Assembly: GCF_004103715.1 (NCBI RefSeq)
Contig: NZ_CP035282.1
Span: forward strand, 982,673 to 1,046,672
Length of the DNA stretch: 64,000 nucleotides
Origin: Acidilutibacter cellobiosedens
GTDB lineage: Bacteria; Bacillota; Clostridia; Tissierellales; Acidilutibacteraceae
Direction: 5' to 3'
This document shows positions 14,687-62,531 of the stretch, piece after piece; the first letter of the stretch is position 1, and each line of letters starts with the position of its first letter. The position numbers were made by a program, and so were the translations under genes. The notes under the pieces were generated by a model that saw only the letters and a list, made by a program, of their open reading frames with translations, was not told where the DNA came from and ran no database searches.

Positions 14687-14714
14687 GGGGCATTTTAAAT
14701 GCCCCTATTTTTTT
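14687..14714 (+). terminator. Rho-independent terminator after the fxsA-like gene
   Basis: GGGGCAT stem, 5-nt loop, ATGCCCC (14687-14705), followed by TATTTTTTT. It separates the pfkA-pyk-fxsA unit from rlmD. Confidence 0.88.
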
Positions 14715-14730
14715 GGAAAGGAAGAAACAT

Positions 14731-16380
14731 ATGAAGGAAGAATTTTGGAAAGGCAAAGAAATAGAATTAAAAATACGGGATATGACAAAAGAAGGACAAG
14801 GAGTAGGAAAGGCAGATGGGTTTACGATATTTGTTGAAGGAGCTATTTTGGGAGATCAAGTGATTGCCAAAATAGAAGATATAAAAAAGAATTATGCCTT
14901 AGGAAAAATAGTAAAAGTAATTTCTCCCTCTGAATACAGAACGGATTCAAAATGTATATACGACATGGATTGTGACGGATGTCAATTTCACAGATTGAAT
15001 TATAATAAGCAACTGGAGTTAAAGACAAGCATAGTGAAAAATGCATTGGAGAGAATAGGAAAAATTCAAGGAGCAGTAATACATCCGACTATAGGAATGA
15101 AATTTCCATATAGGTATAGAAATAAGGGGGAATTTAAAGTAAAATCAGTAGGAGGAAAATCATCTGTCGGCTATTTCAAAAGAAGAAGCCATGATATAAT
15201 TAATATAGAAAGATGTATTATACAGGATGAGTTATCTGATAAAATAATGAATAGTATAAGAGATATATTAAAAAATGAAGATACTTCCGAATTAAAGAAT
15301 ATAACAGTCAGAACAACGAAGCATAAAGAAGCAATGATAATACTTACTACAACGCGCAAAGGATTTTCGTTTAAAGAAAAATTAATAAAAAGGCTTTCAA
15401 ATATAAAAGAAGTGAAAAGTATTTATCAGAATATAAACCCGAGGGCAGATTCGGAAATGATGGGAAGCAGAAACATTAAATTATACGGACAAGATACCAT
15501 AACAGATTGTATAGGAGGTTTCAGATATAGTATTTCTCCCAACTCCTTTTTTCAAGTAAACAGAGAACAGGCGGAAGTATTATATGAAAAAGCAGTGGAA
15601 TACCTTGATTTGAAAAAAGATGAGGTAGTCGTAGATCTTTATTGCGGTATAGGTACTATAAGTTTATATCTGGCCCAAAAGGCCGGAAAGGTCTACGGAG
15701 TCGAAGCAGTAGAAGAAGCCGTAAAAAACGGGCAAGAGAATGCGGTACTTAACAGAATAGAAAACGTAGAATTTATACAAGGCCTTAGTGAAGATGTGTT
15801 TCCCAAGTTATTAAAAAGAGGAATAAAGGCAGATAAATTAGTAGTAGATCCTCCAAGAAGAGGATGTGAAAAAGAAGTATTAGAGACAATAGCTCAGATG
15901 AAGCCCAAACGCATAGTATATATATCCTGCAACCCTGCAACCTTAGCGAGAGATTTGAGATACTTAGAGGAAAGAGGATATAAAACTTTAGAAGTGCAGC
16001 CTGTAGATTTATTTTGCTGGACGGGGCATGTGGAGACGGTTGTATCGCTCTCCCACAAAAAAGCAGACACACATATCAACATAAATGTGGAGTTTGGTGA
16101 TGAGGAAGGACAGATTCCTATTGATGAGATAGCGAGAAAGGCTGAAGAATATAGACCAAGCGAAAGAGTAACCTATAAAATGATGCAAGAGTATATAGAA
16201 AGCAAGTATAATTTCAAGGTGCATACCGCCTATATTGCAGAAGTAAAAAGAGACTTGGGATTACCTATGTACGATGCTCCCAATGCTGTAGAAGAATTAA
16301 AACAAGAACGGAAACACCCAACACCCGAAAAGGTAGAGGCAATAAAAGATGCCTTAAAACATTTTGGAGTTTGCCAATAA
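14731..16380 (+). CDS. rlmD: 23S rRNA (uracil-C5)-methyltransferase RlmD/RumA with element-derived C-terminal extension
   Basis: 549 residues. An N-terminal TRAM domain is followed by Fe-S cysteines in 'CIYDMDCDGCQF', the SAM site around 'VVDLYCGIGTISLYLA', 'DPPRRGCEKEV' and the catalytic Cys in 'YISCNPATLARDL'. It methylates a conserved uracil of 23S rRNA. The normal family end is near 'HVETVVSLSHK' (about residue 447). About 105 further residues, with 'PSERVTYKMMQEYIESKYNF' and 'RDLGLPMYDAPNAVEELKQ', resemble the 3' ends supplied by ICEs that integrate in rumA. A decayed second copy of that 3' end lies at 16635-16733. The ATG at 14731 has AAAGGAAG upstream and is preferred to TTG 14713. Confidence 0.9.
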   Translation: MKEEFWKGKEIELKIRDMTKEGQGVGKADGFTIFVEGAILGDQVIAKIEDIKKNYALGKIVKVISPSEYRTDSKCIYDMDCDGCQFHRLNYNKQLELKTSIVKNALERIGKIQGAVIHPTIGMKFPYRYRNKGEFKVKSVGGKSSVGYFKRRSHDIINIERCIIQDELSDKIMNSIRDILKNEDTSELKNITVRTTKHKEAMIILTTTRKGFSFKEKLIKRLSNIKEVKSIYQNINPRADSEMMGSRNIKLYGQDTITDCIGGFRYSISPNSFFQVNREQAEVLYEKAVEYLDLKKDEVVVDLYCGIGTISLYLAQKAGKVYGVEAVEEAVKNGQENAVLNRIENVEFIQGLSEDVFPKLLKRGIKADKLVVDPPRRGCEKEVLETIAQMKPKRIVYISCNPATLARDLRYLEERGYKTLEVQPVDLFCWTGHVETVVSLSHKKADTHININVEFGDEEGQIPIDEIARKAEEYRPSERVTYKMMQEYIESKYNFKVHTAYIAEVKRDLGLPMYDAPNAVEELKQERKHPTPEKVEAIKDALKHFGVCQ

Positions 16381-30699: not shown

Positions 30700-31179
30700 A
30701 TGCAGGAAGAAGTAGAAAACAGAACCGTTGCACTGGCTATTAACGGAGGTAAACTGACAGGGCATGTGCTAAAGGCGGCAATCCTTAAATTTTTAGCGGC
30801 ACAGAAAAATAAAGGCAGGGATAGTCCTGAAATTCCTCATGGCAAGCAGAGTATCAAAGATCTTGCCAAGCAAAATCAAGGATTAAGTAACATTGAGGTA
30901 ACGGATAAGAATATCAAAAGTTTTGAACGTGTGGCAAGGAAATACGGTGTAGACTTTGCGATCAAAAAGGATAAGTCCGTCACACCGCCGAAATACCTTG
31001 TTTTTTTCAAAGGTAGAGATGCTGATGCCATTACTTCTGCTTTTACTGAGTTTACCGCAAAGACCATGAAGCAAGCGGCAAGACCCTCTGTGCTGGCACA
31101 ACTTAAAAAGTTTACCGAGCTTGTGAAGAACACCATTACCGACAGGGTAAAAAACAGGGAGAAGGAGCAAAGCCGATGA
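30700..31179 (+). CDS. PcfB-family conjugation protein (DUF3801)
   Basis: 159 residues of the PcfB/DUF3801 family. Typical parts are 'LAINGGKLTGHVLKAAILKF', 'SIKDLAKQNQGLSNIEV' and 'FKGRDADAITSAF'. In pCF10 PcfB is encoded beside the coupling protein PcfC and the relaxase and works in substrate processing at the type IV system. Here also it directly precedes the VirD4 gene with ATGA overlap. AAAGGAGG before ATG 30700. Confidence 0.85.
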   Translation: MQEEVENRTVALAINGGKLTGHVLKAAILKFLAAQKNKGRDSPEIPHGKQSIKDLAKQNQGLSNIEVTDKNIKSFERVARKYGVDFAIKKDKSVTPPKYLVFFKGRDADAITSAFTEFTAKTMKQAARPSVLAQLKKFTELVKNTITDRVKNREKEQSR

Positions 31180-32951
31180 ATACAAAACTTAAAAAGCTCC
31201 TTATCCTGAATATCCCCTACCTGTTTCTTGCTCTGTTCTTTACAAAGGTATCACAGGCATGGCAGCTTGCCGCAGGCTTTGAGATGGCGGACAAAATCTT
31301 GAATCTTATGGACGGTTTTTCGGTTGCCTTTAGCAGTCTACTTCCGAGCCTGTATCCACGGGATTTATTGGTTGGTATCGTGTTTGCCGCTATAATCCGT
31401 CTTGCTGTCTATATCAAAGGGAAAAACGCTAAGAAATACAGAAAAGGTGTAGAGTATGGCTCTGCAAGATGGGGCAAAGCCGAAGATATACGACCTTTTG
31501 CAGACCTCGTATTCCGAAACAATGTAATACTGACACAGACAGAACGTCTTATGATGTCAAGCCGCCCCAAAAACCCTAAGAACGCACGAAATAAAAATGT
31601 GCTGATTGTGGGCGGTTCCGGCTCTGGTAAAACAAGGTTTTGGCTGAAACCCAATCTGATGCAATGCCACAGCTCCTATGTGGTAACTGACCCAAAAGGC
31701 AGCATTGTTGTGGAATGTGGGAAGTTGTTACAGCGTGAGGGATATAAAATCAAAATCCTTAACACCATCAACTTCAAGAAGTCCATGCACTACAACCCTT
31801 TTGCTTATATTAGGAGTGAAAAGGACATTTTAAAGCTTGTTACCACCCTCATTGCCAATACCAAAGGCGAAGGTAAGGCAGGTGATGACTTTTGGGTAAA
31901 GGCAGAAACCCTGCTCTATACGGCTCTCATTGGATACATCTATTTTGAAGCTCCTGAACATGAGCAGAACTTCTCCACCCTCATTGAGTTTATTAATGCC
32001 TCTGAGGTGCGTGAAGATGATGAGGACTTTAAAAATCCTGTGGACTTAATGTTTGATGCCTTAGAGGAAAAAGACCCACAGCACTTTGCCGTAAGACAAT
32101 ACAAGAAATACAAACTGGCGGCAGGCAAAACCGCAAAATCTATTCTCATCTCCTGTGGGGCGAGGCTTGCTCCTTTTGACATTAGAGAACTGCGTGAGCT
32201 GACTGCTTACGATGAAATGGAGCTTGATACCTTGGGCGATAAGAAAACCGCCCTGTTTATTATCATCAGCGATACAGATGATACCTTTAATTTCTTGGTA
32301 TCTATGGCATACACACAGCTTTTTAATCTGCTCTGTGATAAAGCAGACGATGTGTACGGCGGCAGACTTCCTGTTCATGTCCGCTGTCTGATTGATGAGG
32401 CTGCAAACATCGGGCAGATACCAAAATTGGAAAAACTGATGGCTACAATCCGTAGCCGTGAAATTTCTGCCTGCCTTGTGTTACAGGCACAAAGCCAGCT
32501 AAAGGCTTTGTATAAAGACAACGCCGATACCATTATCGGTAACTGCGACAGTATGATTTTTCTTGGGGGCAAGGAAAAAACTACCCTCAAGGATTTATCA
32601 GAAACCCTCGGTAAAGAAACCATTGATATGTTTAACACTTCCGACACCAGAGGGTCACAAAGAAGTTACGGGCTTAATTATCAAAAGCTGGGAAAGGAGC
32701 TTATGAGTATGGATGAGCTTGCTGTCATGGATGGAGGCAAGTGCATTTTACAGCTAAGAGGTGTTCGCCCATTTCTCTCCGAAAAGTATGACATTACACA
32801 GCACCCCAATTATAAATACTTATCGGACTTTGATAAAAGAAACACTTTTGATATTGAAAAGTATCTGTCCACAAAACTAAAACCAAAGCCTAATGAGGTG
32901 TATGATGTTTATGAAATCGACCTCACAGACGAACCCGAAACCGCACAGTAG
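31176..32951 (+). CDS. VirD4/TraG-type coupling protein
   Basis: 591 residues. Two membrane segments (about 9-27 and 60-82) anchor a cytoplasmic hexameric ATPase. P-loop 'VGGSGSGKTRFWLKPN' (about residue 143), 'VTDPKGSIVVECG', Walker B 'VRCLIDEAANIGQI' and 'LVLQAQSQLKALY' identify the TraG/VirD4 family. It brings the relaxase-DNA complex and other protein substrates to the transfer channel. The shared C-terminal tails noted on other element proteins could be recognised here. Confidence 0.93.
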   Translation: MNTKLKKLLILNIPYLFLALFFTKVSQAWQLAAGFEMADKILNLMDGFSVAFSSLLPSLYPRDLLVGIVFAAIIRLAVYIKGKNAKKYRKGVEYGSARWGKAEDIRPFADLVFRNNVILTQTERLMMSSRPKNPKNARNKNVLIVGGSGSGKTRFWLKPNLMQCHSSYVVTDPKGSIVVECGKLLQREGYKIKILNTINFKKSMHYNPFAYIRSEKDILKLVTTLIANTKGEGKAGDDFWVKAETLLYTALIGYIYFEAPEHEQNFSTLIEFINASEVREDDEDFKNPVDLMFDALEEKDPQHFAVRQYKKYKLAAGKTAKSILISCGARLAPFDIRELRELTAYDEMELDTLGDKKTALFIIISDTDDTFNFLVSMAYTQLFNLLCDKADDVYGGRLPVHVRCLIDEAANIGQIPKLEKLMATIRSREISACLVLQAQSQLKALYKDNADTIIGNCDSMIFLGGKEKTTLKDLSETLGKETIDMFNTSDTRGSQRSYGLNYQKLGKELMSMDELAVMDGGKCILQLRGVRPFLSEKYDITQHPNYKYLSDFDKRNTFDIEKYLSTKLKPKPNEVYDVYEIDLTDEPETAQ

Positions 32952-34122: not shown

Positions 34123-34536
34123 ATGGCTTATGTACCTGTACCAAAGGATTTAAGCAATGTGAAAACAAAGGTCATGTTCAACCTGACGAAAAGGCAGCTC
34201 ATCTGCTTTTCCCTTGCTCTGTTGGTTGGATTGCCTTTGTTTTTTCTGTTAAAGGACAGAACGAATACAAGTGCTGCAACGCTTATTATGATTTTTGCTA
34301 TGATGCCTTTTTTCATGCTGGCTATGTACGAAAAACATGGGCAACCCCTTGAAATAATCGCAAAGCATTACTTAGAGGTTCGTTTCTTAAATCCAAAACA
34401 AAGACCCTATAAAACAAACAATTTTTATGCCGTTATCATGCGGCAAGCAATGCTGGATAAGGAGGTAAAGTACATTGTTACACGCAAAAAAACCAACCCG
34501 TCCAAAGCTGACAAAGGCAGACAGACGGGAAATTAG
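34123..34536 (+). CDS. PrgI-family conjugation membrane protein (VirB3-like)
   Basis: 137 residues with two adjacent membrane segments (about 27-45 and 50-67) following 'VKTKVMFNLTKRQLICF'. It is the PrgI/VirB3-like partner of the VirB4 ATPase. AAAGGAGG before ATG 34123. The end overlaps virB4 by 62 nt in a different frame. Confidence 0.85.
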   Translation: MAYVPVPKDLSNVKTKVMFNLTKRQLICFSLALLVGLPLFFLLKDRTNTSAATLIMIFAMMPFFMLAMYEKHGQPLEIIAKHYLEVRFLNPKQRPYKTNNFYAVIMRQAMLDKEVKYIVTRKKTNPSKADKGRQTGN

Positions 34537-36874
34537 CACCGCTATTTTACGGGCAAGGAATACCAATAAAAAGGAAAAATCAGCACAGGACAGTATCCCC
34601 TATCTGCGTATGTTCCCCGATGGGATTTGCCATGTTATGGATCGGTTCTACACAAAAACCATACGCTTTCAGGACATCAACTACCAGCTCGCCCAAAATG
34701 AGGATAAGACCGCAATTTTTGAAAGCTGGTGTGATTTCCTTAACTATTTTGATAGCTCCATTAAATTTCAGTTTTCCTTTCTCAACATGACCGCCAACGC
34801 AAAGGATTATGAAAGCAGTATTTCCATCAAGCCACAGCAGGACGATTTTGACAGTATCCGTACTGAATATGCAGATATGCTCCATAATCAACTTGCAAAG
34901 GGTAATAACGGTTTGACGAAAACGAAATATCTTACCTTTGGAATTGAAGCAGACAGCATTAGAATTGCAAAGCCGAGGTTAGAGAGGATTGAAAATGACC
35001 TGTGGAATGGACTAAAACGGATTGGAGTATCGGTGGAGTCCCTTGACGGAAAGGAACGCTTAAAGCTCTGCCATAATATGATTAGAATGGACGGGAATGA
35101 GCCTTTTCGCTTTGATTGGAAATGGCTTGTGCCATCAGGATTGTCTACAAAAGATTTTATTGCTCCGTCCTCTTTTGAGTTTCATGAGGGCAGGACATTT
35201 AAAACAGGCGGTAAATATGGTGCAGTTTCCTTTTTGCAGATACTTGCACCCGAACTCAATGACAGGGTACTTGCTGACTTCCTCGATATGGAAAGCAACC
35301 TGTTAATTACCATGCACATTCAGTCCGTTGACCAAACAAAGGCAATCAAGACCATCAAGCGAAAGATTACAGACCTTGATAAAATGAAAATTGAGGAACA
35401 GAAAAAGGCAGTTCGTTCCGGCTATGACATGGACATTATCCCCTCTGACCTTGCTACGTATGGTGGAGAGGCGAAGAAACTCCTTGCAGATTTACAGAGC
35501 AGAAACGAGAGAATGTTTCTTATGACCTTTCTTGTAATGAACACTGCGGACACCAAACAACAGCTTGAAAATATCGTATTTCAGGCATCGGGGATTGCCC
35601 AAAAACATAACTGCACTTTGGTAAGATTGGACTTCCAGCAGGAGCAAGGCTTTATGTCCTCTCTGCCCCTTGGATTCAATCAGATAGCCATTCAGCGAAG
35701 TCTAACTACTTCTGCTACCGCAATTTTCGTTCCCTTTACCACACAGGAGCTATTTCAATCAAGCGGCGAGGCTTTGTATTATGGCTTAAATGCTCTAAGC
35801 AACAACCTTATTATGGTAGACCGAAAACGGCTGAAAAATCCTAACGGCTTAATTTTAGGAACGCCCGGCAGTGGCAAGTCCTTTTCTGCAAAACGTGAGA
35901 TTGCAAATATCTTTCTCATTACTACCGATGACATCATCATTTGTGACCCAGAGGCAGAGTATTATCCTCTCGTCAACCGCCTAAACGGACAGGTGGTAAA
36001 AATCTCTCCCACAAGCACGGACTATGTAAATCCAATGGACATTAACTTAAATTACAGCGAAGATGAAAACCCTTTATCGTTGAAATCTGACTTTATCCTG
36101 TCCTTGTGTGAGCTGATTGTAGGCGGGAAAGAGGGACTACAGCCTGTGGAGAAAAGTATTATAGACCGCTGTGTCCGTCTTATTTATGCTGACTACCTTG
36201 CCGACCCCGTACCCGAAAAGATGCCGATTTTGGAGGATTTGTATAATGCCCTTGAAAGTCAAGGAGAAAAAGAGGCACAGCATATCAGAGCCGCCCTTGA
36301 AATTTATGTGACAGGTTCGCTTAATGTATTTAACCATCGTACCAACGTGGACATCACAAACCGCCTTGTCTGCTTTGAAATCAAGGAGTTGGGTAAGCAG
36401 CTTAAAAAGTTAGGTATGCTTGTAGTGCAGGATCAGGTTTGGAACAGGGTAACGGTAAACCGTGCTGAGAAACGTGCGACCCGTTACTACATGGATGAGT
36501 TTCATCTGCTGCTGAAAGAAGAACAAACGGCGGCTTACAGCGTGGAAATTTGGAAAAGGTTTAGAAAGTGGGGAGGGATTCCTACAGGTATTACGCAGAA
36601 TGTCAAAGACCTGCTATCCTCTCGTGAGGTGGAGAATATCTTTGAAAACTCTGATTTCATCTATATGCTCAATCAAGCGTCGGGGGATAGACAAATTCTT
36701 GCAAAGCAGCTTAACATCTCTCCTCATCAGCTTTCTTATGTGACCCAATCGGGCGAGGGAGAAGGACTACTGTTTTACGGCAATGTGATTTTACCATTTG
36801 CTGATAAATTCCCGAAAGATACGGAGCTTTACCGTATCATGACCACGAAGCCGAATGAAACGGAAAAGGATTAG
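34475..36874 (+). CDS. VirB4-type conjugation ATPase
   Basis: 799 residues. The start TTG 34475 has AAGGAGG upstream inside prgI. After an N-terminal VirB4 domain comes the P-loop 'LGTPGSGKSFSAKREI' (about residue 461), Walker B region 'RYYMDEFHLLLKEE', and 'GITQNVKDLLSSREVENIFE'. It energises assembly of the transfer channel and substrate passage. No motif is missing. Confidence 0.93.
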   Translation: MLHAKKPTRPKLTKADRREISTAILRARNTNKKEKSAQDSIPYLRMFPDGICHVMDRFYTKTIRFQDINYQLAQNEDKTAIFESWCDFLNYFDSSIKFQFSFLNMTANAKDYESSISIKPQQDDFDSIRTEYADMLHNQLAKGNNGLTKTKYLTFGIEADSIRIAKPRLERIENDLWNGLKRIGVSVESLDGKERLKLCHNMIRMDGNEPFRFDWKWLVPSGLSTKDFIAPSSFEFHEGRTFKTGGKYGAVSFLQILAPELNDRVLADFLDMESNLLITMHIQSVDQTKAIKTIKRKITDLDKMKIEEQKKAVRSGYDMDIIPSDLATYGGEAKKLLADLQSRNERMFLMTFLVMNTADTKQQLENIVFQASGIAQKHNCTLVRLDFQQEQGFMSSLPLGFNQIAIQRSLTTSATAIFVPFTTQELFQSSGEALYYGLNALSNNLIMVDRKRLKNPNGLILGTPGSGKSFSAKREIANIFLITTDDIIICDPEAEYYPLVNRLNGQVVKISPTSTDYVNPMDINLNYSEDENPLSLKSDFILSLCELIVGGKEGLQPVEKSIIDRCVRLIYADYLADPVPEKMPILEDLYNALESQGEKEAQHIRAALEIYVTGSLNVFNHRTNVDITNRLVCFEIKELGKQLKKLGMLVVQDQVWNRVTVNRAEKRATRYYMDEFHLLLKEEQTAAYSVEIWKRFRKWGGIPTGITQNVKDLLSSREVENIFENSDFIYMLNQASGDRQILAKQLNISPHQLSYVTQSGEGEGLLFYGNVILPFADKFPKDTELYRIMTTKPNETEKD

Positions 36875-52300: not shown

Positions 52301-54191
52301 ACTTTATACCATGATGCGGTATCTGCAATATTCCACACTCCAGCGTAACGGATTGGTTCACTTTGATAGTTGGGCAAGTACATTCGGAGAAACTGTGACC
52401 GCCATCGAACTGGCCCCTGAAGGTACAGGGTATCGGGCAAGGACAAGATTTTCAAAATTCTTTAATCTGCCCGAACTTATGGCAATGTTCAAAGAGGTTG
52501 CGGATATTAAAACTGCCGACCAGTTAAACCTGCCTACTCCAAAAACTAACTATCATACCATTGCAGTAAAGCCTACGGAGATACAGCAGGAAATGGTAAA
52601 GGACTTATCGGAAAGAGCCGCCGAGGTTCATGCAAACAAGGTTGACCCCTCTGTTGACAATATGCTGAAAATCACTTCTGATGGACGGAAGTTAGGACTT
52701 GATCAACGTATCATTAACCCACTTCTTCCCGATGACGAAAGTAGCAAGGTAAATGCCTGTGTCGATAATATCTACCACATTTGGGATAAGGGTATATCAG
52801 AACGGCTGACACAGCTTGTATTCTGTGATATTTCTACTCCAAAGGGCAAGGCTGCGGCACAGGAACAAAAAGCGGCAAAGGCAGGAAACCAAACCATAAA
52901 TGGTGTGGAACTCCATGCTTTGGAGAATAGCTTGCCTGATGAGGTAGTTACCCATGATACTTCATTCAATGTCTATGATGATATACGGGAGAAATTGATT
53001 AAAAAAGGTGTCCCTGCCCATGAGGTAGCATTTATCCATGAGGCAAATACGGAAGTCAGAAAAAAGGAGTTATTTGCAAAGGTGCGTAGCGGTGATGTCC
53101 GAGTGCTGATTGGCAGTACCGCAAAATGCGGTGCAGGCACGAACATCCAAGACCGCCTTGTGGCACTCCATGACCTTGACTGCCCTTGGCGTCCGGGGGA
53201 TTTGACACAGCGTTCCGGAAGAATTGAACGACAGGGAAATTTAAACGAGGAAGTGAACATTTACCGCTATGTGACAGAGGCAACCTTTGATGCCTACCTG
53301 TGGCAGACCATAGAAAATAAGCAGAAGTTTATCTCGCAGATTATGACTTCCAAAAGCCCTGTCCGTTCTTGTGAAGATGTAGATGAAGCGGCATTGTCCT
53401 ATGCGGAAATTAAGGCTCTGTGTGCCGGCAATCCAAAAATCAAGGAAAAGATGGACTTGGACATTGAGGTGTCAAGGCTCAAGCTCTTAAAAGCAAGCCA
53501 CCAAAGTAATCAGTACCGTTTGGAGGATAACTTATTAAAATATTTTCCTGAAAATATTGAGAAGAACAAAAGCTTTATCAAAGGCTTTGAGCAGGACTTA
53601 AAGACCCTTGCCGAGAATACGCCTGCCGAGGGTGTATTTTTGCCGATGATAATTAAAGGCGATACCCTGACGGATAAGGACAATGCGGGAGCTGCTCTCC
53701 TTGAGGCTTGCAAAGAAGTGAAAGGAAAAGACCCTATGGAAATTGGCAGTTACCGAGGATTTACTATGCACCTGTCTTATGACGGTTTTTATAATGAATT
53801 TCAGCTTATCTTAAAGGGTGCGATGAGCCATATAGCAAAGCTTGGTATGGATGCAAGGGGAAATCTCACTCGTATTGACAATGCTCTTGCCGCTATGCCT
53901 GACAGGTTAAAGGCTGTTATGGATCAGCTTGACAATCTCTACAAACAGCAGGATGCGGCAAAATCTGAGGTCGGCAAACTGTTCCTACAGGAGCAGGAAT
54001 TAAAAGATAAGGTTTCTCGTCTTGCTGTCCTCGATGCGGAGCTGAACATGAGCGTTTCTAAGCCGCAGGAACAGGCTGACAGGCGGGTTTCCAAAAGAGA
54101 GCGTCCATCGGTATTAGATAGCCTGAAACAGTCCTCACAGGTCAGCAGAGAGGGCAAGGAAAAACAAAATAGATATATGGAGGTTTTATAA
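46365..54191 (+). CDS. giant SNF2-like helicase with N6-adenine methylase and accessory domains
   Basis: 2,608 residues from ATG 46365 (CAGGAGGAC upstream). An N-terminal ~250-residue domain ('[20 protein letters not shown]') is followed by a low-complexity linker (about 250-375) that overlaps tnpV in another frame. Several LPD-like repeats containing '[11 protein letters not shown]' are next, then the methylase (motif I '[11 protein letters not shown]' about 1081, motif IV 'NVPFG' about 1145, where NPPF/Y is usual) and the helicase: '[11 protein letters not shown]' (about 1752), 'VDEAHNYKN', '[10 protein letters not shown]', '[10 protein letters not shown]' (about 2283). A coiled C-terminus follows. 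It may protect, modify and unwind transferred DNA. Coupled to mobC by TAATG. Confidence 0.92.
47125..47481 (+). CDS. tnpV: TnpV-family protein encoded inside the helicase gene in another frame
   Basis: 118 residues from ATG 47125 with AAAGGAGC 7-8 nt upstream. The sequence '[19 protein letters not shown]', '[14 protein letters not shown]', '[20 protein letters not shown]' and the terminal '[13 protein letters not shown]' are clear TnpV family hallmarks. It is read in the +1 frame relative to the 2,608-residue helicase, which there encodes only a Gln/Glu/Gly-rich linker. Both proteins seem intact, so the segment is overprinted. TnpV is a widespread accessory protein of Tn1549-like elements with unknown function. 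Confidence 0.8.
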
Positions 54192-54526
54192 TGGCAAAGC
54201 GAAAAAGAAATATACAGTTGCACTTCATGGTATCAGAGCAGGAACGAAAGCTGATAGAGGAAAAGATGGAACAGCTTGGCACAAAGAATTTGGGAGCATA
54301 TCTGCGTAAAATGGCAGTGGACGGCTATGTTATCCATCTTGATTTGTCCGATATACGGGAGCTTGTTACCTTGCTTCGCCGCACCAGCAACAGTCTAAAC
54401 CAACTTACAAAGCGTGTTCATCAGACAGGCAATATTTATATTGAGGACTTGGAGGCACTGCGGGAAAGCTATGATAAACTTTGGGATACGTCAGATGAAA
54501 TATTATCCCGACTTTCCACTATTTAA
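54191..54526 (+). CDS. mobC: MobC-type relaxosome protein
   Basis: 111 residues. Basic ribbon-helix-helix-like N terminus ('RKRNIQLHFMVSEQERKLIE') then 'LGAYLRKMAVDGYVIHLDLS' and 'LLRRTSNSLNQLTKRVHQTG' as in MobC/NikA-type accessory proteins. It binds oriT and opens it for the relaxase. The ATG overlaps the helicase TAA by one base. Confidence 0.9.
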   Translation: MAKRKRNIQLHFMVSEQERKLIEEKMEQLGTKNLGAYLRKMAVDGYVIHLDLSDIRELVTLLRRTSNSLNQLTKRVHQTGNIYIEDLEALRESYDKLWDTSDEILSRLSTI

Positions 54527-54606: not shown

Positions 54607-54891
54607 ATGCGGATACTGCTTAAAATATTATTATTCCCTATTACCCTAATATTGACTGTTATTTTGCTCATCTGTGAGTTCATTTGTATGTTTGGAACAA
54701 TGCTGCTCTCTATCCTGGCATTAATCCTATTTGCCTTAGCACTTGGTATTATGATTTTCTTGGGCGAGTTACAGGACGGAATAAAAGCAATGGTACTTGC
54801 CTTCCTTATTAGTCCTTATGGAATACCCTTGTTTGCCGGATGGCTTATCGGAAAATTACAGTCAGTCAATGAACGGTTAAAATCTATTTAA
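54607..54891 (+). CDS. CD1845-type small membrane protein
   Basis: 94 residues from ATG 54607 (AAAGGAGG upstream), nearly all hydrophobic: segments at about 4-26, 30-50 and 55-80, ending 'PLFAGWLIGKLQSVNERLKS'. It matches the small CD1845-like membrane proteins adjacent to MobC/relaxase genes in these ICEs. Function unknown. Followed by two hairpins. Confidence 0.65.
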   Translation: MRILLKILLFPITLILTVILLICEFICMFGTMLLSILALILFALALGIMIFLGELQDGIKAMVLAFLISPYGIPLFAGWLIGKLQSVNERLKSI

Positions 54892-54897
54892 TGATGA

Positions 54898-54999
54898 AAG
54901 GGCGAAAGCACTTTTAGGCTTTCTCCCTTAGTTGCCACAAAGCAGAAGTACCAGCGTAGAACAAGGGCGGCAAAGCCGTTTATCTTGACCCTTGTTCTA
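54898..54999 (+). promoter_or_regulatory. two conserved-looking hairpins between the membrane gene and HEPN gene
   Basis: First hairpin AAGGGcGAAAGC (54898-54909) / GCTTTCtCCCTT (54918-54929). Second: 11-bp TAGAACAAGGG / CCCTTGTTCTA (54957-54967, 54989-54999), enclosing CGGC-AAA-GCCG. No T tract follows. Candidate structured RNA, or part of an origin of transfer near mobC. Nothing else is seen in 54892-55137 except a weak promoter (TTGATG at 55034, TATAAT at 55060). Confidence 0.4.
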
Positions 55000-55137
55000 T
55001 GTGGGCTCTTTTGCTATTTCTTATTAAAAACTATTGATGATTTTGAAGATATTGTATAGTATAATTATTTTTGAAAATTGGAATTTAAGTGCAGAACGTT
55101 AAAACATATTAAATTGTTTTATTTTGGAGGAAAGAAA

Positions 55138-55890
55138 ATGAGAAATCAAAAAGATAGTGAAATACTCTATTTTCAAAGCAAGTTATCAGAGGTAACCTAC
55201 AATTCAAATCGTTTTAAGGTAATGATTGGTGAAGATAGATTTTTGTTTGGAGTAGTTTCTGCAAATGATAATGAAGCTCCCTTTGGAAAACTGATGCAGT
55301 ACAAAACGATATATGATACTCTGAAAGATTTGGACTGGAAAATTAAAATGTCATTTGATGAAGCTATCAAATATGCATATTCTGACTCCATGAAAAATGA
55401 CTTTAGTCTGATTAGAACGGATTCGGAAGAAGAAGGACTTGCTTTTTATTATATTGAAAATGCTTTGTTTCGCACCTCAAGTTTGTGGGATATGTTGGCA
55501 CAGTTATATAGACTTTTCTACAATGTAGATATTCCAAAAGAGAAAGTTTATTACAAACAAATATTTAGTCCTACTAAAAATTATGGGGATAAATTCAGGA
55601 TAAAGGCAGCAGAAATTTATGAATATATTGAACAAGATGATAATACGGATTGTGAAGGAGAGTGGAAAGGTAATCATTCCTTTGTCAATGACCTTAGGAA
55701 TAAAATGATACATAGAAACTCTCCCAATATTGCTGTAATGAGTGATTTTGATATGAACCTAAAACATCATCCTGTTTTTCAGCTTAAGAGAATAATTGAA
55801 GATTATGTAGTAGTTTCACAATATATTAAAGAGATTTTGGATGAGATAGAAAAGGAAGTTATGAGTACTTTTGATGATGCAGATTGTTAA
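55138..55890 (+). CDS. HEPN-domain protein (candidate RNase), accessory gene 1
   Basis: 250 residues from ATG 55138, 7 nt after GGAGG; an upstream in-frame start (55078) has no binding site. The C-terminal helical part carries 'NDLRNKMIHRNSPN' with Arg187-x4-His192, the R-x4-H motif of HEPN RNases (similar to the Cthe_2314 HEPN group). The N-terminal 120 residues are unrecognised. It is clearly more AT-rich than the conjugation genes around it, suggesting separate acquisition. With the next gene it may be a toxin-antitoxin or abortive-infection pair. Moderate confidence in the domain, low in function. Confidence 0.55.
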   Translation: MRNQKDSEILYFQSKLSEVTYNSNRFKVMIGEDRFLFGVVSANDNEAPFGKLMQYKTIYDTLKDLDWKIKMSFDEAIKYAYSDSMKNDFSLIRTDSEEEGLAFYYIENALFRTSSLWDMLAQLYRLFYNVDIPKEKVYYKQIFSPTKNYGDKFRIKAAEIYEYIEQDDNTDCEGEWKGNHSFVNDLRNKMIHRNSPNIAVMSDFDMNLKHHPVFQLKRIIEDYVVVSQYIKEILDEIEKEVMSTFDDADC

Positions 55891-55924
55891 GAGAAGGACA
55901 TAATTTATGAAGGAGAAGGGCAGT

Positions 55925-56566
55925 ATGAAAATCTTTTATGAAAGTAAAATCATGGAACAATCAGCTCATTTTGGTTGGCAAGATAAAGATTCAGCTTTAT
56001 ATGGTCTGAGAGAGGGGTATAAAAATAGTGCAGATGATTTAGTGGGAATTGCCTTAGAAAGTGGAAATATTAAAACTTTAGATACATATATCTTCCCTAT
56101 TTTATTCTCTTATCGACATAGTTTGGAAATTTTTTTAAAACATATTTATCTACGGTGTTGGGGAAAGTTACCCAAAGGTGGACATAACTTAATAACTCTT
56201 TGGGATGAAGTAAAAACAGAAGTTATAGATGGATTTATAAATAATGAAACCGCTCTTGAAGAGGTCAAAAGGAACAAAATTGATTTTATACCTTATTCGT
56301 TAGCCGATATAAGCCTTACTAAAATCAGACTTTTGCTCAAAGAATTTCAAGAGGCAGATCAAAGAGATTTCGAAAGAACAAATCCATCTGAAAAGCAAAC
56401 AGATCAAAACGCAGAAGTTTGGAGATATTTAATTAGTACCGATAATGATTTATACTTTACAAGCGGTCATTCGATTGACTATTTATCATTAAAAGAAAGC
56501 ATTTCATATTTGTATGAAATATTTGACTTTCTATACCATATTACGGATGAATACCTATCATCTTAA
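55925..56566 (+). CDS. partner protein with HEPN-like helices, accessory gene 2
   Basis: 213 residues. ATG 55925 is chosen because AAGGAG lies 8-9 nt upstream; an ATG at 55907 precedes it. 'SYRHSLEIFLKHIYLRC' followed by 'GKLPKGGHNLITLWDEV' resembles the 'H..E..LK....G...HDL..L' pattern of HEPN-type helical bundles. No R-x4-H motif is visible. Only 34 nt separate it from the first gene and a terminator closes the pair. It may be an antitoxin or a catalytically inert partner. I do not recognise a named family. Confidence 0.5.
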   Translation: MKIFYESKIMEQSAHFGWQDKDSALYGLREGYKNSADDLVGIALESGNIKTLDTYIFPILFSYRHSLEIFLKHIYLRCWGKLPKGGHNLITLWDEVKTEVIDGFINNETALEEVKRNKIDFIPYSLADISLTKIRLLLKEFQEADQRDFERTNPSEKQTDQNAEVWRYLISTDNDLYFTSGHSIDYLSLKESISYLYEIFDFLYHITDEYLSS

Positions 56567-56630: not shown

Positions 56631-58031
56631 TTGGCAACAACACGCTTAATTTCTATGCACCAAAACAAAGGAAAGTCTATTGCTGATTGTCTTGCAGATC
56701 GCACAGATTATGCGAAAAATACTAACAAAACAAATGATGGCGAATACATCAGCTCTTACGAGTGTGACCCTAAAACCGTGCAGGGAGAATTTCTTTTATC
56801 TAAGCGAATTTACTCTGACATTACAGGTAGAGAACAAGCAAACGATGTAATAGCTTATCAGATACGCCAATCCTTTAAACCGGGAGAAGTTACGCCGGAG
56901 CTTGCCAATCAAATAGGCTATGAATTGGGTATGCGGTTTACAAAAGGCAATCATGCTTTTTTTGTCGCTACCCATATAGATAAGGCTCATATTCATAACC
57001 ACATAATTTTTAATTCCACCTCACTGGACTGCACCAAAAAATTTCGTGATTTTTTAGGTTCAGGCAGAGCAATTCGTAAAATATCTGACCGCATTTGCCT
57101 TGAAAACGGACTGTCTATTGTTGAAAATCCAAAGCGAGGAAAAAACCATTATGGTAAATGGCTTGGAGATAAAAAGCCTGTTTCTCACTCTGAAAAGTTA
57201 AGGCTTGCTATAGATGAAACCCTTAGAAAAAAGCCTGCCGATTTTGATACGTTCTTATCAGAAATGAAACTGGAAGGATATGAAATCAAGACGGGAATGC
57301 ACATCAGTTTTAAGAGTGAAAATCAAAAAAAATTCATTCGCCTGCGTTCTTTAGGGAGTGGATATTCTGAGGAAGAAATCAAGGCTGTCATTGACGGGAA
57401 CAAACCTTTTGTTAATAGAAAAAGAGCAACTGAAAAGTCACAATCTCATGTTAATCTTTTAGTAGATATACAAGCAAAATTGCAGGCTGGAAAAGGTGCT
57501 GGTTATGAACGGTGGGCAAAGATTTTTAACCTAAAACAGATGGCACAGACAATTAATTTTCTAACGGAAAATAATCTGCTTTCTTATGAAGATTTGGATA
57601 AAAAGGCAAAGGCTGTTACAGATAATTTCAATCAATTATCGGCTCAAATTAAAGCTGCCGAAAAGCGTATGACAGAGATAGTAAGCCTTAAAACCCATAT
57701 CATCAATTATTCCAAAACCCGTGAGGTTTACATGGCTTACCGCAAGGCAGGATACTCCAAAAAATTCTATGAAGAGCATACTGCTGATTTGCTTTTGCAT
57801 AAAGCGGCAAAGGCGGCTTTTGACAGCTTAGAGGGCAAGAAATTACCTACCGTTAAGGCTCTGCAAATGGAATATTCCAAACTGCTTTCTGAAAAGAAAA
57901 AAGCTTATGGGAAGTATCATTCCACTAAAAAAGAAATGCAGGATATACTGAATGCAAAGGCAAATGTTGACCGTCTTTTAGGCGAGAATATATCGGAGAA
58001 GGAAAAAGAAAAATCACAGGAACAGAGGTAA
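56631..58031 (+). CDS. MobA-type relaxase (MOBP-like)
   Basis: 466 residues from TTG 56631 (AAAGGAGG upstream). The relaxase domain (about 1-240) starts 'MATTRLISMHQNKGKSIADC' and has the metal-binding triad 'HIDKAHIHNHIIFNS'. The probable nicking Tyr is in the N-terminal part ('DRTDYAKN'). A long coiled C-terminal half ends in Lys/Glu/Gln-rich 'KEKEKSQEQR'. It nicks oriT and leads the strand into the recipient. A terminator overlaps its end. Confidence 0.9.
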   Translation: MATTRLISMHQNKGKSIADCLADRTDYAKNTNKTNDGEYISSYECDPKTVQGEFLLSKRIYSDITGREQANDVIAYQIRQSFKPGEVTPELANQIGYELGMRFTKGNHAFFVATHIDKAHIHNHIIFNSTSLDCTKKFRDFLGSGRAIRKISDRICLENGLSIVENPKRGKNHYGKWLGDKKPVSHSEKLRLAIDETLRKKPADFDTFLSEMKLEGYEIKTGMHISFKSENQKKFIRLRSLGSGYSEEEIKAVIDGNKPFVNRKRATEKSQSHVNLLVDIQAKLQAGKGAGYERWAKIFNLKQMAQTINFLTENNLLSYEDLDKKAKAVTDNFNQLSAQIKAAEKRMTEIVSLKTHIINYSKTREVYMAYRKAGYSKKFYEEHTADLLLHKAAKAAFDSLEGKKLPTVKALQMEYSKLLSEKKKAYGKYHSTKKEMQDILNAKANVDRLLGENISEKEKEKSQEQR

Positions 58032-58048
58032 TCTCTCCTGTGATTTTT
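58013..58048 (+). terminator. terminator overlapping the relaxase end
   Basis: ATCACAGGA (58013-58021) and TCCTGTGAT (58036-58044), 9-bp stem, followed by TTTTC. Confidence 0.75.
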
Positions 58049-58050
58049 CA

Positions 58051-58200
58051 GCTCCCAAAGGGAGCGTAGCCACACAATTTATTGTGTGTTCAGTGGGGAT
58101 TGGGGAACTCCCCAACAAGCAGATTTGCCCAAAATACCGTAAGGGAATTTTGAGCAAAATCGCAAGGTGTGTACCACCTTGCCCTGCTTGCCACGTTACT
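58051..58200 (+). other. candidate origin of transfer downstream of the relaxase
   Basis: A 150-nt gene-free stretch dense in inverted repeats: GCTCCC-AAA-GGGAGC, CACACAAT-TT-ATTGTGTG (58071-58088), GGGG/CCCC, and GCAAGGTG-TGTAC-CACCTTGC (58162-58182). The last is directly followed by CCTGC. An inverted repeat next to a C-C-T-G-C sequence resembles P-type nick regions. The remaining 58201-58322 shows no gene. No nick site is proved. Confidence 0.45.
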
Positions 58201-58322: not shown

Positions 58323-58676
58323 TCATTCGTCCTCTGTTTCGACTTCCTTAACCTCTTTTGCTGTAGCGGTAACAATCTGCAAACCCTTGTCGCTTATATC
58401 ATCAAGCAGACTTTCAAGCTGCCTACGTTGCGTGGATTTATCTGTTTCTTTATTTGGAAAAAAGAATTGGTCTACCGATACATCTAAAAGAGTAACAAGT
58501 TCATAAAAGATTTGAAGGCTTGGGTGCTGTCCACTATTTTCGATGGACGCAATATAGCGAGGAGCAATGTGAATTTGATCCGCTAATTCGTTTCTTGATA
58601 ATCCCTTTGCTTTACGTGCTGCTTTTATGGCTTGACCGAAAGTCTTAAAATCGTATTTTTCGACTTTGCGTATCAT
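58323..58676 (-). CDS. XRE-family transcriptional regulator
   Basis: 117 residues. Helix-turn-helix of the Cro/CI type at about 15-70 ('FGQAIKAARKAKGLSRNELA', 'IAPRYIASIENSGQHPSLQI'), followed by 'LVTLLDVSVDQFFFP' and an acidic tail. Regulators like this, transcribed against the relaxase, stand at the right end of Tn1549-type elements and control transfer or excision. AGGGTGA precedes the ATG at 58676. The xis and int genes that usually follow are absent. Confidence 0.88.
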   Translation of the reverse strand: MIRKVEKYDFKTFGQAIKAARKAKGLSRNELADQIHIAPRYIASIENSGQHPSLQIFYELVTLLDVSVDQFFFPNKETDKSTQRRQLESLLDDISDKGLQIVTATAKEVKEVETEDE

Positions 58677-58976: not shown

Positions 58977-59096
58977 TACGCTGACCAGAGCCTTGATTAC
59001 GATGAAGAATTGGTAAGGCTCCTTGTTGAGAAGGTAAATGTATTTGAAAGCAACGTGGTTGTAAGGTTTAAGTCGGGAATTGAAGTAGAAGTATAA
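58977..59096 (+). pseudogene. 3' remnant of a serine site-specific recombinase
   Basis: An open frame of 39 codons ending TAA 59094. It reads 'YADQSLDYDEELVRLLVEKV' then 'NVFESNVVVRFKSGIEVEV', which matches the last residues of large serine recombinases of Firmicute elements (YDE-LVR-L-EKV-V......FKSG-E). No start codon or upstream part exists; the junction is with repeat R1. It is probably what remains of the element's integrase, or of another resident element. Confidence 0.7.
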
Positions 59097-59190: not shown

Positions 59191-59355
59191 AAGAGTAATC
59201 GAATCTGTATCGAATTCTCCATCAAAATGAACAACGCTACTTTTCTTATAAGATGTAACTTTAAACTTTCCATTTTTAACGTTAGTAAGTATATCCTCAT
59301 CTGATAAAGATTTTATCAGTGCTGTACTTCTGATTAAATTAATATTCTTAGTCAT
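59182..59355 (-). pseudogene. truncated Crp/Fnr-family regulator (N-terminal piece)
   Basis: 57 residues from the ATG at 59355 (GGGAG upstream), 'MTKNINLIRSTALIKSLSDE' and 'VTSYKKSSVVHFDGEFD'. This is the first third of a cyclic-nucleotide-binding-like domain of Crp/Fnr regulators, which are normally about 220 residues. The frame stops where repeat R2 begins, and the DNA-binding domain is missing. The downstream neighbour and operator suggest an HcpR-like role before truncation, which is inference. Confidence 0.6.
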
Positions 59356-59370
59356 ATAGAATCTCCCATG

Positions 59371-59386
59371 TGTTACCAAGGTAACA
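59371..59386. promoter_or_regulatory. perfect palindromic operator between the regulator and the 4Fe-4S gene
   Basis: TGTTACCAAGGTAACA: 7-bp arms around a 2-bp centre. GTTAC..GTAAC half-sites are of the Crp/Fnr type. A TATAAT for the rightward gene lies at 59409. With the regulator truncated, the site may now be read by a paralogue elsewhere. Confidence 0.6.
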
Positions 59387-59445
59387 CCCTTTTTAATATT
59401 ATAGCGTTATAATATTAAAAATTCAATAAATGGGTGGAGGATCAT

Positions 59446-59901
59446 ATGAAGTATATTATTACTACAATACGTGTTTTATTTTTTGCGCTATTCATATTTT
59501 TATTACTTAACGGTAAAATGATGCTTTGGATTGCATTATATGCGGTAAGTCTCTTAGTAGCATTGCTATTTGGCAGAGTATATTGTGGTTATGTCTGTCC
59601 GATGAATACGTTGATGATTCCAACAGAATGGCTCTCAAAAAAGCTAAAGCTACAGACGGTTAATTCTTCCAAGTGGCTTAGCTCTGGAAAATTTGCATGG
59701 TTCGCATTGGTGGGTAGCGTAGCAATAATGTTGCTTGCACAAAAATTGTTACATAAAAATATTCCTATCTTACTAATTTGGTTAGTGGTTTCGGTGCTTA
59801 TAACGCTTAGATATAAGCCGGCAGTATTTCATATTGTCAACAAGTATGTTCGAAAGATGCCATTTACTACTCAAAATAGATATAATCGTTTTGTGTTGTG
59901 A
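59446..59901 (+). CDS. NapH/CcoG-like 4Fe-4S membrane protein
   Basis: 151 residues from ATG 59446 (GGAGG upstream). Membrane segments at about 5-22, 26-45, 80-98 and 104-120. Between the first two and the rest lies 'GRVYCGYVCPMNTLM', part of a 4Fe-4S binding loop (CxxxCP) of the polyferredoxin family NapH/YccM. It is shorter than usual and lacks the C-terminal ferredoxin cluster, so it may be truncated or a minimal variant. Divergent from the Crp/Fnr remnant and probably controlled by the palindrome. Confidence 0.6.
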   Translation: MKYIITTIRVLFFALFIFLLLNGKMMLWIALYAVSLLVALLFGRVYCGYVCPMNTLMIPTEWLSKKLKLQTVNSSKWLSSGKFAWFALVGSVAIMLLAQKLLHKNIPILLIWLVVSVLITLRYKPAVFHIVNKYVRKMPFTTQNRYNRFVL

Positions 59902-60181: not shown

Positions 60182-61765
60182 GTGATAAAATTGAATCAAA
60201 AACAAAAAATCATACTTAAACATATTGACGGTATGAGCAATCGAAGCATTGCCAGTGAGCTTCACATGAGCAAGGATACTGTAAATAAATATGTAAATGA
60301 GTATGAAAATCAAAAGCAAGAACTTTTAGCAAAAAATCCTGAAACAGATACAAAAGAATTAATTCAAGCAATTGTTGAAAAACCAAAATACAATTCTGAA
60401 AACAGAGGGCCAAACAAGGTAACATCTGAGATGATTGAAGTAATTGAAGAATGCTTAAAGGTTAATGAATGGAAGCGTGCTAACGGTATGTCAAAGCAGC
60501 AAATGAGAAAAATTGATATTCATGAATACTTGTTAAAGAAAAATTTTAATATTAGTTATTCATCAGTTAAAAGATTAGTTAAAACAATCGAGGATAGGCA
60601 TCGTGAAGCTTTCATAAGACAAGAATATGTTCTTGGAGATGTATGTGAATTTGACTGGGGTACGGCAAAATTAGATATAGGGGGAGAAGGATATAAAGCT
60701 TATCAAATGGCAGTTTTTACTCCTGCTAAAAGCGGAATCAGATATTCAATGCTTTTTAAATCTCAAGATACTCCAGCATTTCAACAATCACATGCAGAAT
60801 TTTTCTCATTTTGCAAAGGTAATTTTAGAACAATGGTCTATGATAATATGAGGGTTGCAGTTAAGAAATTTGTTGGATTGTTCGAAAAAGAGCCAACAAA
60901 AGCATTGACAGAATTATCAATATACTATGGATTCAACTTTAGGTTCACGAATATTGCAAAAGGCAATGAAAAGGGCCACGTTGAGAGAAGTGTAGAATAT
61001 GTTAGAAGAAAAGTATTCAGTGAGCCGGGTAATGACAAATTCGACACTCTTGCAGAAGCAAACAAGTTTCTTTTTGAAGAATGTATGAAGCTTAATAATA
61101 AAGAAACATCTAACGGATTGGTGCCGATGGAAATCTTTAAAGAAGAGCAAAAACACTTGTTTCCTAACTTACCTAAGTTTGAAAGCAGTATTTATTCAGA
61201 AAACCGTGTTGACAAATATTCGACCGTAACGGTAAGTCAAAATCATTATTCTGTGCCGGATACATTAGTTGGTAAAATGGTAAAAGTGAAGATGTTTACA
61301 GATAAGATAATTATCTACTACGATAACAGCATTGTAGCTAAACATGACCGCAGTTTTAAACTGCATGACTGGAAAATTGAGATTCATCATTATCTTAGAA
61401 CTCTACATAAAAAACCAGGTGCCCTCAAAGGAAGCACAGCACTGCTCCAAACGGACACCCAGATCAAATATATCTATGAACAGTATTATACCAAAGATGC
61501 CAAGACATTTCTACAAGTTTTAGAAATTATTTATGAAAAAGGAATCCATGCTGTGACAGAAGCTTTAAGGGAACTTGAAAAACTGTCACCAATGGATATG
61601 AGTGCTGATAAGGTTAAGGTGATTTGTGAAAGTAGAAAGGAAAAAGAAATTTGCGTTACTGTTCCATTAAATGATCATCTAACTGAAAAATCAAGGAGCA
61701 CATTATCGATTTATGATAAACTTGCAGCACTCCAATCAAGAAAGCTTAACAAGGAGGCTGTATAG
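60182..61765 (+). CDS. istA: IS21 transposase IstA
   Basis: 527 residues, GTG 60182 (a TTG at 60191 is possible). An N-terminal helix-turn-helix ('DGMSNRSIASELHMSKDTVN') is followed by the DDE integrase core: 'VCEFDWGTAKLD', 'VYDNMRVAVKKF' and 'GNEKGHVERSVEYVRR'. A C-terminal beta domain follows with 'YSVPDTLVGKMVKVKMF'. It cuts and joins the IS ends. Ends one base before the IstB ATG, in a different frame. Confidence 0.93.
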   Translation: MIKLNQKQKIILKHIDGMSNRSIASELHMSKDTVNKYVNEYENQKQELLAKNPETDTKELIQAIVEKPKYNSENRGPNKVTSEMIEVIEECLKVNEWKRANGMSKQQMRKIDIHEYLLKKNFNISYSSVKRLVKTIEDRHREAFIRQEYVLGDVCEFDWGTAKLDIGGEGYKAYQMAVFTPAKSGIRYSMLFKSQDTPAFQQSHAEFFSFCKGNFRTMVYDNMRVAVKKFVGLFEKEPTKALTELSIYYGFNFRFTNIAKGNEKGHVERSVEYVRRKVFSEPGNDKFDTLAEANKFLFEECMKLNNKETSNGLVPMEIFKEEQKHLFPNLPKFESSIYSENRVDKYSTVTVSQNHYSVPDTLVGKMVKVKMFTDKIIIYYDNSIVAKHDRSFKLHDWKIEIHHYLRTLHKKPGALKGSTALLQTDTQIKYIYEQYYTKDAKTFLQVLEIIYEKGIHAVTEALRELEKLSPMDMSADKVKVICESRKEKEICVTVPLNDHLTEKSRSTLSIYDKLAALQSRKLNKEAV

Positions 61766-61766
61766 T

Positions 61767-62531
61767 ATGAAGGTTAAATTAAATGAAGAGATTAAAGAAT
61801 ACTGTAATATATTGAAACTTAAAGGAATTAAAACTCACTATGAAGAAGTAATATCTGAAGCGGCTGATTATGAGGATTTTCTTCATAAGCTTTTAACTTA
61901 TGAGATGGAAGAAAAGGATAAGCGTTCCATTGAATGTCGTATTCGAAATGCACATTTGCCTTACAGGCAATATATTGAAGATATTGAAATTGACTGTCTC
62001 CCAGTAGATATGCAGAAAAGACTTCCTGAGTTAGCAACACTTGATTTTATCGAAAAAGGCAAAAATATCATAATGACCGGTAACCCGGGAACCGGAAAAA
62101 CTATGGTTAGTATTGCTTTAGCATTAAAGGCTTGCATGGCAGGTTATAAGGTTCTGTTCACGACAATTCCACTACTGGTTACTACATTGAAGGAAAGCAA
62201 TAGCGCTAAGACCTTGAGATATTTTGAGAATAGATTTGAAAAATATGACCTTGTAGTGGCAGATGAACTTGGGTACACCTCGTTTGACCGGGAAGGGACA
62301 GATCTGCTGTTTAATAATCTTTCTTTAAGGGCAGCAAGGAAATCAACAATAATTACTTCTAACCTTTCATTTGAGCGTTGGATTGAGGTTTTCGGTGATC
62401 CGACAGTTACAAGTGCGATGATAGATAGACTTACTTACAAGGCAATTCTTGTCGACATGGAGGGTGATTCTTATCGGCTAAGAGAAACATTAAGAGAAAA
62501 TGGTGCATCTATTAAATCTTTAACAGCTTAA
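61767..62531 (+). CDS. istB: IS21 ATPase helper IstB
   Basis: 254 residues from ATG 61767 (AAGGAGG upstream). AAA+ ATPase of the DnaC/IstB type: 'MTGNPGTGKTMVSIAL', Walker B 'DLVVADELGYTSFDREG', and sensor 'STIITSNLSFERWIEVFGDP'. It selects target DNA for IstA. No truncation. Confidence 0.94.
   Translation: MKVKLNEEIKEYCNILKLKGIKTHYEEVISEAADYEDFLHKLLTYEMEEKDKRSIECRIRNAHLPYRQYIEDIEIDCLPVDMQKRLPELATLDFIEKGKNIIMTGNPGTGKTMVSIALALKACMAGYKVLFTTIPLLVTTLKESNSAKTLRYFENRFEKYDLVVADELGYTSFDREGTDLLFNNLSLRAARKSTIITSNLSFERWIEVFGDPTVTSAMIDRLTYKAILVDMEGDSYRLRETLRENGASIKSLTA

Follow-up and report, generated by a model that had tools for sequence, protein, structure and literature searches.

Does the cluster of inverted repeats that follows the relaxase gene in the 64,000-nt stretch of Acidilutibacter cellobiosedens DNA analysed here (the window) act as an origin of transfer (oriT) and, if so, where is the strand cut? 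An earlier note on this DNA had proposed an oriT with repeat and nick region arranged as in P-type origins. Our analysis supports the first part of this proposal and corrects the second. Positions 58095-58195 are very probably the oriT of a Tn1549-like ICE, nicked on the + strand at 58190/58191 by the element's own relaxase together with MobC.

The genes of the element that bear on this question are:

31176-32951, + strand: VirD4-type coupling protein, same element (PF02534, 2.5e-53)
34475-36874, + strand: VirB4-like transfer ATPase, same element (PF19044, 4.4e-11; weak match to CagE_TrbE_VirB, 2.5e-4)
54191-54526, + strand: MobC/NikA-like accessory mobilisation protein (Pfam NikA-like PF21983, 9.1e-15)
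56631-58031, + strand: MOBP-type relaxase (Pfam Relaxase PF03432, 1.7e-33)
58323-58676, - strand: HTH regulator adjoining the oriT and transcribed towards it (domain search)

With MobC, VirD4 and the VirB4-like ATPase, the element has parts of a conjugation machine. Among 85 aligned relaxases, Y27 is kept in all 80 rows with a residue at that position, and H115, D117, H120, H122 and H124 are kept in 82/82 such rows, as expected for a working relaxase. The place of Y27 suggests that it is the catalytic residue. A MobC homologue lies near the relaxase in many relatives as well. In the available part of PMC7563491, ICEs of the Tn1549 family are described as carrying a MobP relaxase, VirD4, an MPF-FATA T4SS, and a serine integrase (sites rumA or hsdM). 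A uracil-5-methyltransferase gene is located at 14713-16380. No intact serine integrase was recognised in the element, which therefore may not excise by itself. By eye, 58981-59095 resembles the C-terminal end of a serine recombinase, left as a remnant, and 58980-59093 gave no Pfam match. Separately, a HEPN-domain gene (PF18730) and a gene of unassigned family are paired at 55138-56566, between the DUF5699 gene and the relaxase gene. Homologues of both occur together near the relaxase in loci L012 and L132, and PADLOC returned no match for these two cargo genes.

The stretch 3' of the relaxase gene is devoid of ORFs of 80 aa and holds the following features:

58008-58049, + strand: 14-nt inverted repeat overlapping the stop codon of the relaxase gene (repeat search), a probable terminator
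58051-58065, no strand assigned: outer hairpin GCTCCC/GGGAGC (hairpin count)
58071-58088, no strand assigned: outer hairpin CACACAAT/ATTGTGTG (repeat search and hairpin count)
58100-58115, no strand assigned: element A hairpin TTGGGGA/TCCCCAA, immediately 5' of CAAGCAG (hairpin count)
58116-58122, - strand (CAAGCAG on +, CTGCTTG on -): inverted copy of the nick core, a mirror half-site (segment counts and predicted fold)
58124-58158, no strand assigned: hairpin P2, an imperfect repeat with 15-nt arms (87%), found in the long class of relatives only (see below)
58147-58160: perfect hairpin ATTTTG/CAAAAT, overlapping the longer P2
58162-58182, + strand: hairpin P3, GCAAGGTG-TGTAC-CACCTTGC, with an 8-bp stem and a 5-nt loop
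58185-58191, + strand: nick region TGCTTG|C (the bar marks the predicted cut), matching the tabulated pRJ6 and Tn1549 nic sites

The clustering of inverted repeats noticed earlier is confirmed: 58051-58200 contains five perfect hairpins (arms of at least 6 nt, loops of 2-10, non-overlapping). Together they comprise 70 paired nt; dinucleotide shuffles contain 0.34 hairpins on average, and 0/1000 match the hairpin content of the stretch. Its paired bases also exceed those of every other tile among the 2554 overlapping 150-nt tiles of the window. The second-highest hairpin content belongs to 59276-59450, which by eye includes TGTTACC-AA-GGTAACA. Folded as single-stranded DNA, 58094-58196 reaches -28.1 kcal/mol (z -6.2), and 0/200 shuffles are as good. 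A GGGG...CCCC-AA context like that of element A is seen in many A motifs of relatives, including the one in pMG2200. A further inverted repeat, 58187-58198/58238-58249, was set aside because the bases 3' of the nick vary among relatives.

In one alternative, the DUF5699 and HEPN genes would flank the oriT, at 54898-54999, and 58051-58200 would be only regulatory or terminator DNA. That segment has inverted repeats too, and similar DNA is present in the relatives L004, L007, L008, L010-L014, L017 and L133. Its hairpin density, however, is ordinary (304/1000 shuffles are as high), and 54890-55090 is without TGCTTG, CAAGCA or a degenerate core on either strand. Moreover, beyond relaxases of about 70% identity or more, a single 22-nt match was found (L047), whereas the module at 58162 reaches relaxases of about 30% identity. 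With the core absent and the matches almost restricted to near relatives, 54898-54999 was rejected, and an oriT there is hardly credible.

Where, then, within the cluster at 58051-58200 would the relaxase cut? The earlier note had seen CCTGC directly 3' of the repeat and likened this to the repeat and nick region of P-type origins. RP4 is cut at YATCCTG|Y, and a nick of its type would fall at CCTG|C (58186/58187). The CCTGC does follow the hairpin (CCTGCTTGCC lies directly 3' of P3), and this part of the observation stands. Its reading as a P-type nick site does not: the window has GCCCTGCTTGCC in place of the RP4 consensus, and the flanking bases vary among relatives while the core is kept. 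In the 69 rows of the window's group, the two bases 5' of the core are CC (34), AT (20), AC (13), GC (1) and AG (1), and in the Tn1549 group they are TG, TA, AG, AA and TT; the core itself is TGCTTG in 72/85 rows, TGCTCG in 11, and CGCTTG in two. Since the two bases before the core vary and the core is mostly kept, a cut of the RP4 type is very unlikely, and we rejected it. The nick sites tabulated for Tn1549 (RYGCTTG|C) and pRJ6 (TGCTTG|CCA) fall after GCTTG, and the parts of PMC7755788 consulted call this nic-site test set experimentally determined. The window reads CC-TGCTTG|CCA, and its core equals the pRJ6 site and, but for the R, the Tn1549 site. On this basis, we predict a cut of the + strand at 58190/58191, probably four bases beyond the RP4-like position.

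The window has 42 copies of TGCTTG on the two strands, and the oriT copy alone has a hairpin at most 3 nt 5' of it, although this test is weak by itself because 100 shuffled windows average 0.33 such sites, with up to three. When the genome was scanned for the core pattern with up to three mismatches, one exact match was returned, the window's oriT, among 13 matches in total (14 for the reversed control). Immediately 5' of the nick region, P3 is probably the hairpin that the relaxase recognises.

Conservation beside the relaxase argues for the same reading. The relaxase is present in 18/299 genomes of a sample of the phylum; 8/100 related genomes have DNA resembling the oriT stretch. Relaxase relatives were drawn from genome contigs (the best 80 of 248), other genomes, viral contigs and plasmids, and loci with a relaxase match were scanned strictly for a hairpin, exactly 2 nt, and then YGCTYGC. 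The module was found beside the relaxase in 96/134 loci, a count in which some loci are duplicates and four are copies of the window's own, with 79 distinct module strings, and it is still present down to about 30% relaxase identity. The strict scan found no module in the other 38 loci, nine of which have less than 150 nt downstream. The core with a weaker stem is seen in L019, L023, L039, L052, L069, L073, L080, L089, L130 and L137; L027, L034, L036, L041, L044 and L051 have no recognisable module nearby. These counts also bear on the possibility that the module is a replication origin or a recombination site instead of an oriT. Dense hairpins would suit either function, and the possible recombinase remnant mentioned above lies close by. 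This explanation is nevertheless extremely unlikely, as the module accompanies so many relaxases and its core equals nic sites of conjugative elements, as tabulated in PMC7755788.

Is the hairpin itself maintained? To avoid selecting by the hairpin, 74 distinct segments were chosen by the A motif and the core only. They form a long class (41 segments, 59-79 nt from the inverted copy to the core) and a short class (33 segments, 31-39 nt). At least 7/8 stem pairs form at the 2-nt spacing in 57/74 segments; spacings of 0, 4, 5 and 6 nt give 3, 0, 3 and 3 segments, respectively. Counts at spacings of 1 and 3 nt are 41 and 24, which probably reflects a largely shared stem. Pairing at this level is reached by 77% of arms with their own partners compared with 2.4% of 5194 trials with arms from different loci. 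The perfect stems are of 17 different kinds, with changes on both sides at 7/8 positions. The number of different stems argues strongly that P3 is under selection, although related segments are not independent trials. RNAalifold, applied to a MAFFT alignment of 40 segments (40/41 of the long class; the second segment of L091 was left out), returned the outer helix only, with a covariation term near zero. As loop lengths shift the P3 arm in this alignment, P3 and P2 were counted by script. P2 also looks to be under selection, its fold having z < -2 in 36/41 long-class segments (mononucleotide shuffles). Hence, a module conserved beside the relaxase, compensatory change in its hairpin and a core matching the pRJ6 and Tn1549 nic sites together support the oriT proposed in the earlier note.

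The module is also oriented in one of two ways. The order in the window is mobC, relaxase, oriT, HTH gene, and the oriT is downstream on the same strand in 69/85 relaxases and upstream on the opposite strand (the Tn1549 type) in 16/85. In a tree of 85 distinct relaxases (matches of at least 750 nt, from the 96 loci with the module), the two groups are split by one branch with 100% SH-aLRT, which amounts to one change; the tree is a quick one with long branches, notably that of L143. The sole exception among the 96 is L131, a partial relaxase nearest to that of Tn1549 with a downstream oriT, which was dropped from the tree by its length. The sequences around the core follow the same division. 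An R precedes the core in 15/16 upstream-type rows and 1/69 downstream-type rows, and the window has C; the bases after the nick are CT in 16/16 upstream rows and CC in 53/69 downstream rows. It is the upstream group that agrees with the consensus tabulated for Tn1549. Since the R difference is a difference between groups, the window is filed with a sister group and not with Tn1549's own type.

Wherever an HTH homologue was found adjoining the oriT, it lies on the far side and points at the oriT. This holds for the downstream type (the window's locus, L004, L008, L010-L012, L015, L055, L079 and L083) and for the upstream type (L091, L138 and L140). No HTH homologue was detected in most other loci, and L025 has one about 3.8 kb away. 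In both arrangements, reading 3' from the nick moves away from the mob genes, and by this geometry they would be the last to enter the recipient.

The other conserved part is the inverted copy of the core. AACAAGCA lies immediately 3' of the GGGG/CCCC hairpin and 5' of the core, and CAAGCA is matched with TGCTTG in 60/74 segments (the motifs used for selection allowed A/G and C/T). When the region is folded in silico as a single strand, a helix between CAAGCAG and CTGCTTG closes a junction that contains P2 and P3 and has the predicted nick at its base. Positions 58116-58122 probably serve as a second half-site for recognition or, in single-stranded DNA, as the opposite strand of the junction helix. 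The inverted copy and the pairing arm are the same letters, which the double-stranded reading and the folding share and which cannot by themselves separate the two. A third explanation is that the copy is a second true nick site on the - strand and that the module is a two-way origin. On that strand, P2 is separated by 2 nt from the TGCTTG|TTGGGG that follows it, a mirror image of P3 on the + strand. Moreover, a TGCTCG core is accompanied by a CGAGC copy in 11/11 tree rows and 8/9 segments. The remaining TGCTCG segment (L070), however, has CAAGCG, and of the two CGCTTG segments the copy matches in L055 and not in L129. The core and its copy show three supported independent changes together (sign test, p 0.25), too thin for the covariation to prove pairing of the outer helix. 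In addition, the base that follows the inverted copy is T, not C, and in 11/16 upstream-type rows the full inverted motif is absent at 28-90 nt, most of them keeping CAAG or so by eye. A second nick site is therefore unlikely.

The available portions of PMC7755788, PMC4735348, PMC6414798, PMC6856555, PMC7563491, PMC5704250 and PMC3826655 hold no description of the inverted copy. Tentatively, oriTs of the Tn1549 superfamily might be two-sided: two half-sites, each of hairpin, 2 nt and TGCTTG, would be placed back to back, one on each strand, with a single hairpin common to both in the short class. The relaxase would begin transfer at one half-site and use its mirror either for seating a second subunit or for ending the transfer and resealing. 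In this proposal, the module of oriT and HTH gene would have been turned once relative to the mob genes, with polarity unchanged. We regard this extended proposal as possible, though doubtful. What a specialist may not expect is this single reversal of the module, together with the mirror half-site.

How would transfer proceed from this site? The module, its conservation, the hairpin covariation, the conserved relaxase residues, and the coupling-protein and ATPase genes are read directly in the DNA; from these we infer binding, the exact nick, catalysis by Tyr27 and the polarity of transfer. The relaxase and the NikA-like MobC would recognise the 8-bp hairpin and the TGCTTG|C located 2 nt 3' of it. 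The relaxase would then cut the + strand, probably via Tyr27, and remain attached to the 5' end so formed (5'-CCACGTT...), and VirD4 would guide the nicked strand to the secretion channel. In the transferred strand, the HTH gene would be the first out and the relaxase gene the last. The Tn1549 relaxase is reported as cis-acting in the accessible part of PMC6856555, so tests in trans may underestimate function.

These data provide a rule for finding transfer origins: a hairpin, 2 nt and TGCTTG|C, mostly with CCCCAACAAGCA before them. The rule covers a large group of ICEs, mostly of Bacillota, and the position of the oriT predicts the direction in which an element enters the recipient. Moreover, the inverted copy of the core raises a testable question about the assembly of MOBP relaxosomes in this group or the way they terminate transfer.

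Further sites of the same kind occur outside the cluster. L101 in the same genome (258596-259924) encodes a relaxase 32% identical and a MobC, and its oriT is of the Tn1549 style, lying upstream on the opposite strand; the genome thus has one locus of each type, the window's (downstream) and L101. A second copy of the oriT region (L002:1501-1632, genome positions 3304229-3304360) is 77% similar, and neither of the genome's two relaxase matches lies near it. Lacking the nick core and part of the hairpin arm, it looks like a decayed remnant. On pMG2200, L091:2035-2124 (- strand, near vanR) is a second oriT-like module with element A, a 12-bp hairpin and CATTGCTTG|CCAG; its core is closer to that of the window's group than to that of Tn1549's own. 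To the right of the element in the window, 60182-62531 looks by eye like an istA/istB pair of the IS21 type.

Compared with known systems, the site is ordinary in kind, and we locate with confidence what reads as an oriT of the Tn1549 kind. The oriT of RP4 (IncP, MOBP) is like the window's in having a hairpin just 5' of the nick region and a relaxase of a related superfamily. Its nick sequence YATCCTG|Y is absent from the window, and we know of no inverted core copy in RP4. The pRJ6 oriT is identical to the window over the nine letters TGCTTG|CCA, a comparison of the letters tabulated in PMC7755788 alone. Tn1549, a vancomycin-resistance element, shares the hairpin, the 2-nt spacing and the GCTTG|C core, the inverted core copy after a GGGG/CCCC hairpin, the HTH gene directed towards the oriT, and homologues of mobC and the MOBP relaxase. 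In pMG2200 (L091), a vanB plasmid with a Tn1549-type element whose relaxase is 37.7% identical to that of the window, the same parts keep their order but lie on the other strand, with the HTH gene on one side and mobC on the other. We take L091:3584-3670, by its motif and place rather than by coordinates, to be the published 28-bp oriT. The pMG2200 oriT lies before mobC on the opposite strand, whereas that of the window follows 162 nt after the relaxase gene on the same strand, with CC after the nick and C at the R position (CT in 16/16 and R in 15/16 of the upstream type). The difference in arrangement from Tn1549 concerns where the oriT is placed rather than the site itself.
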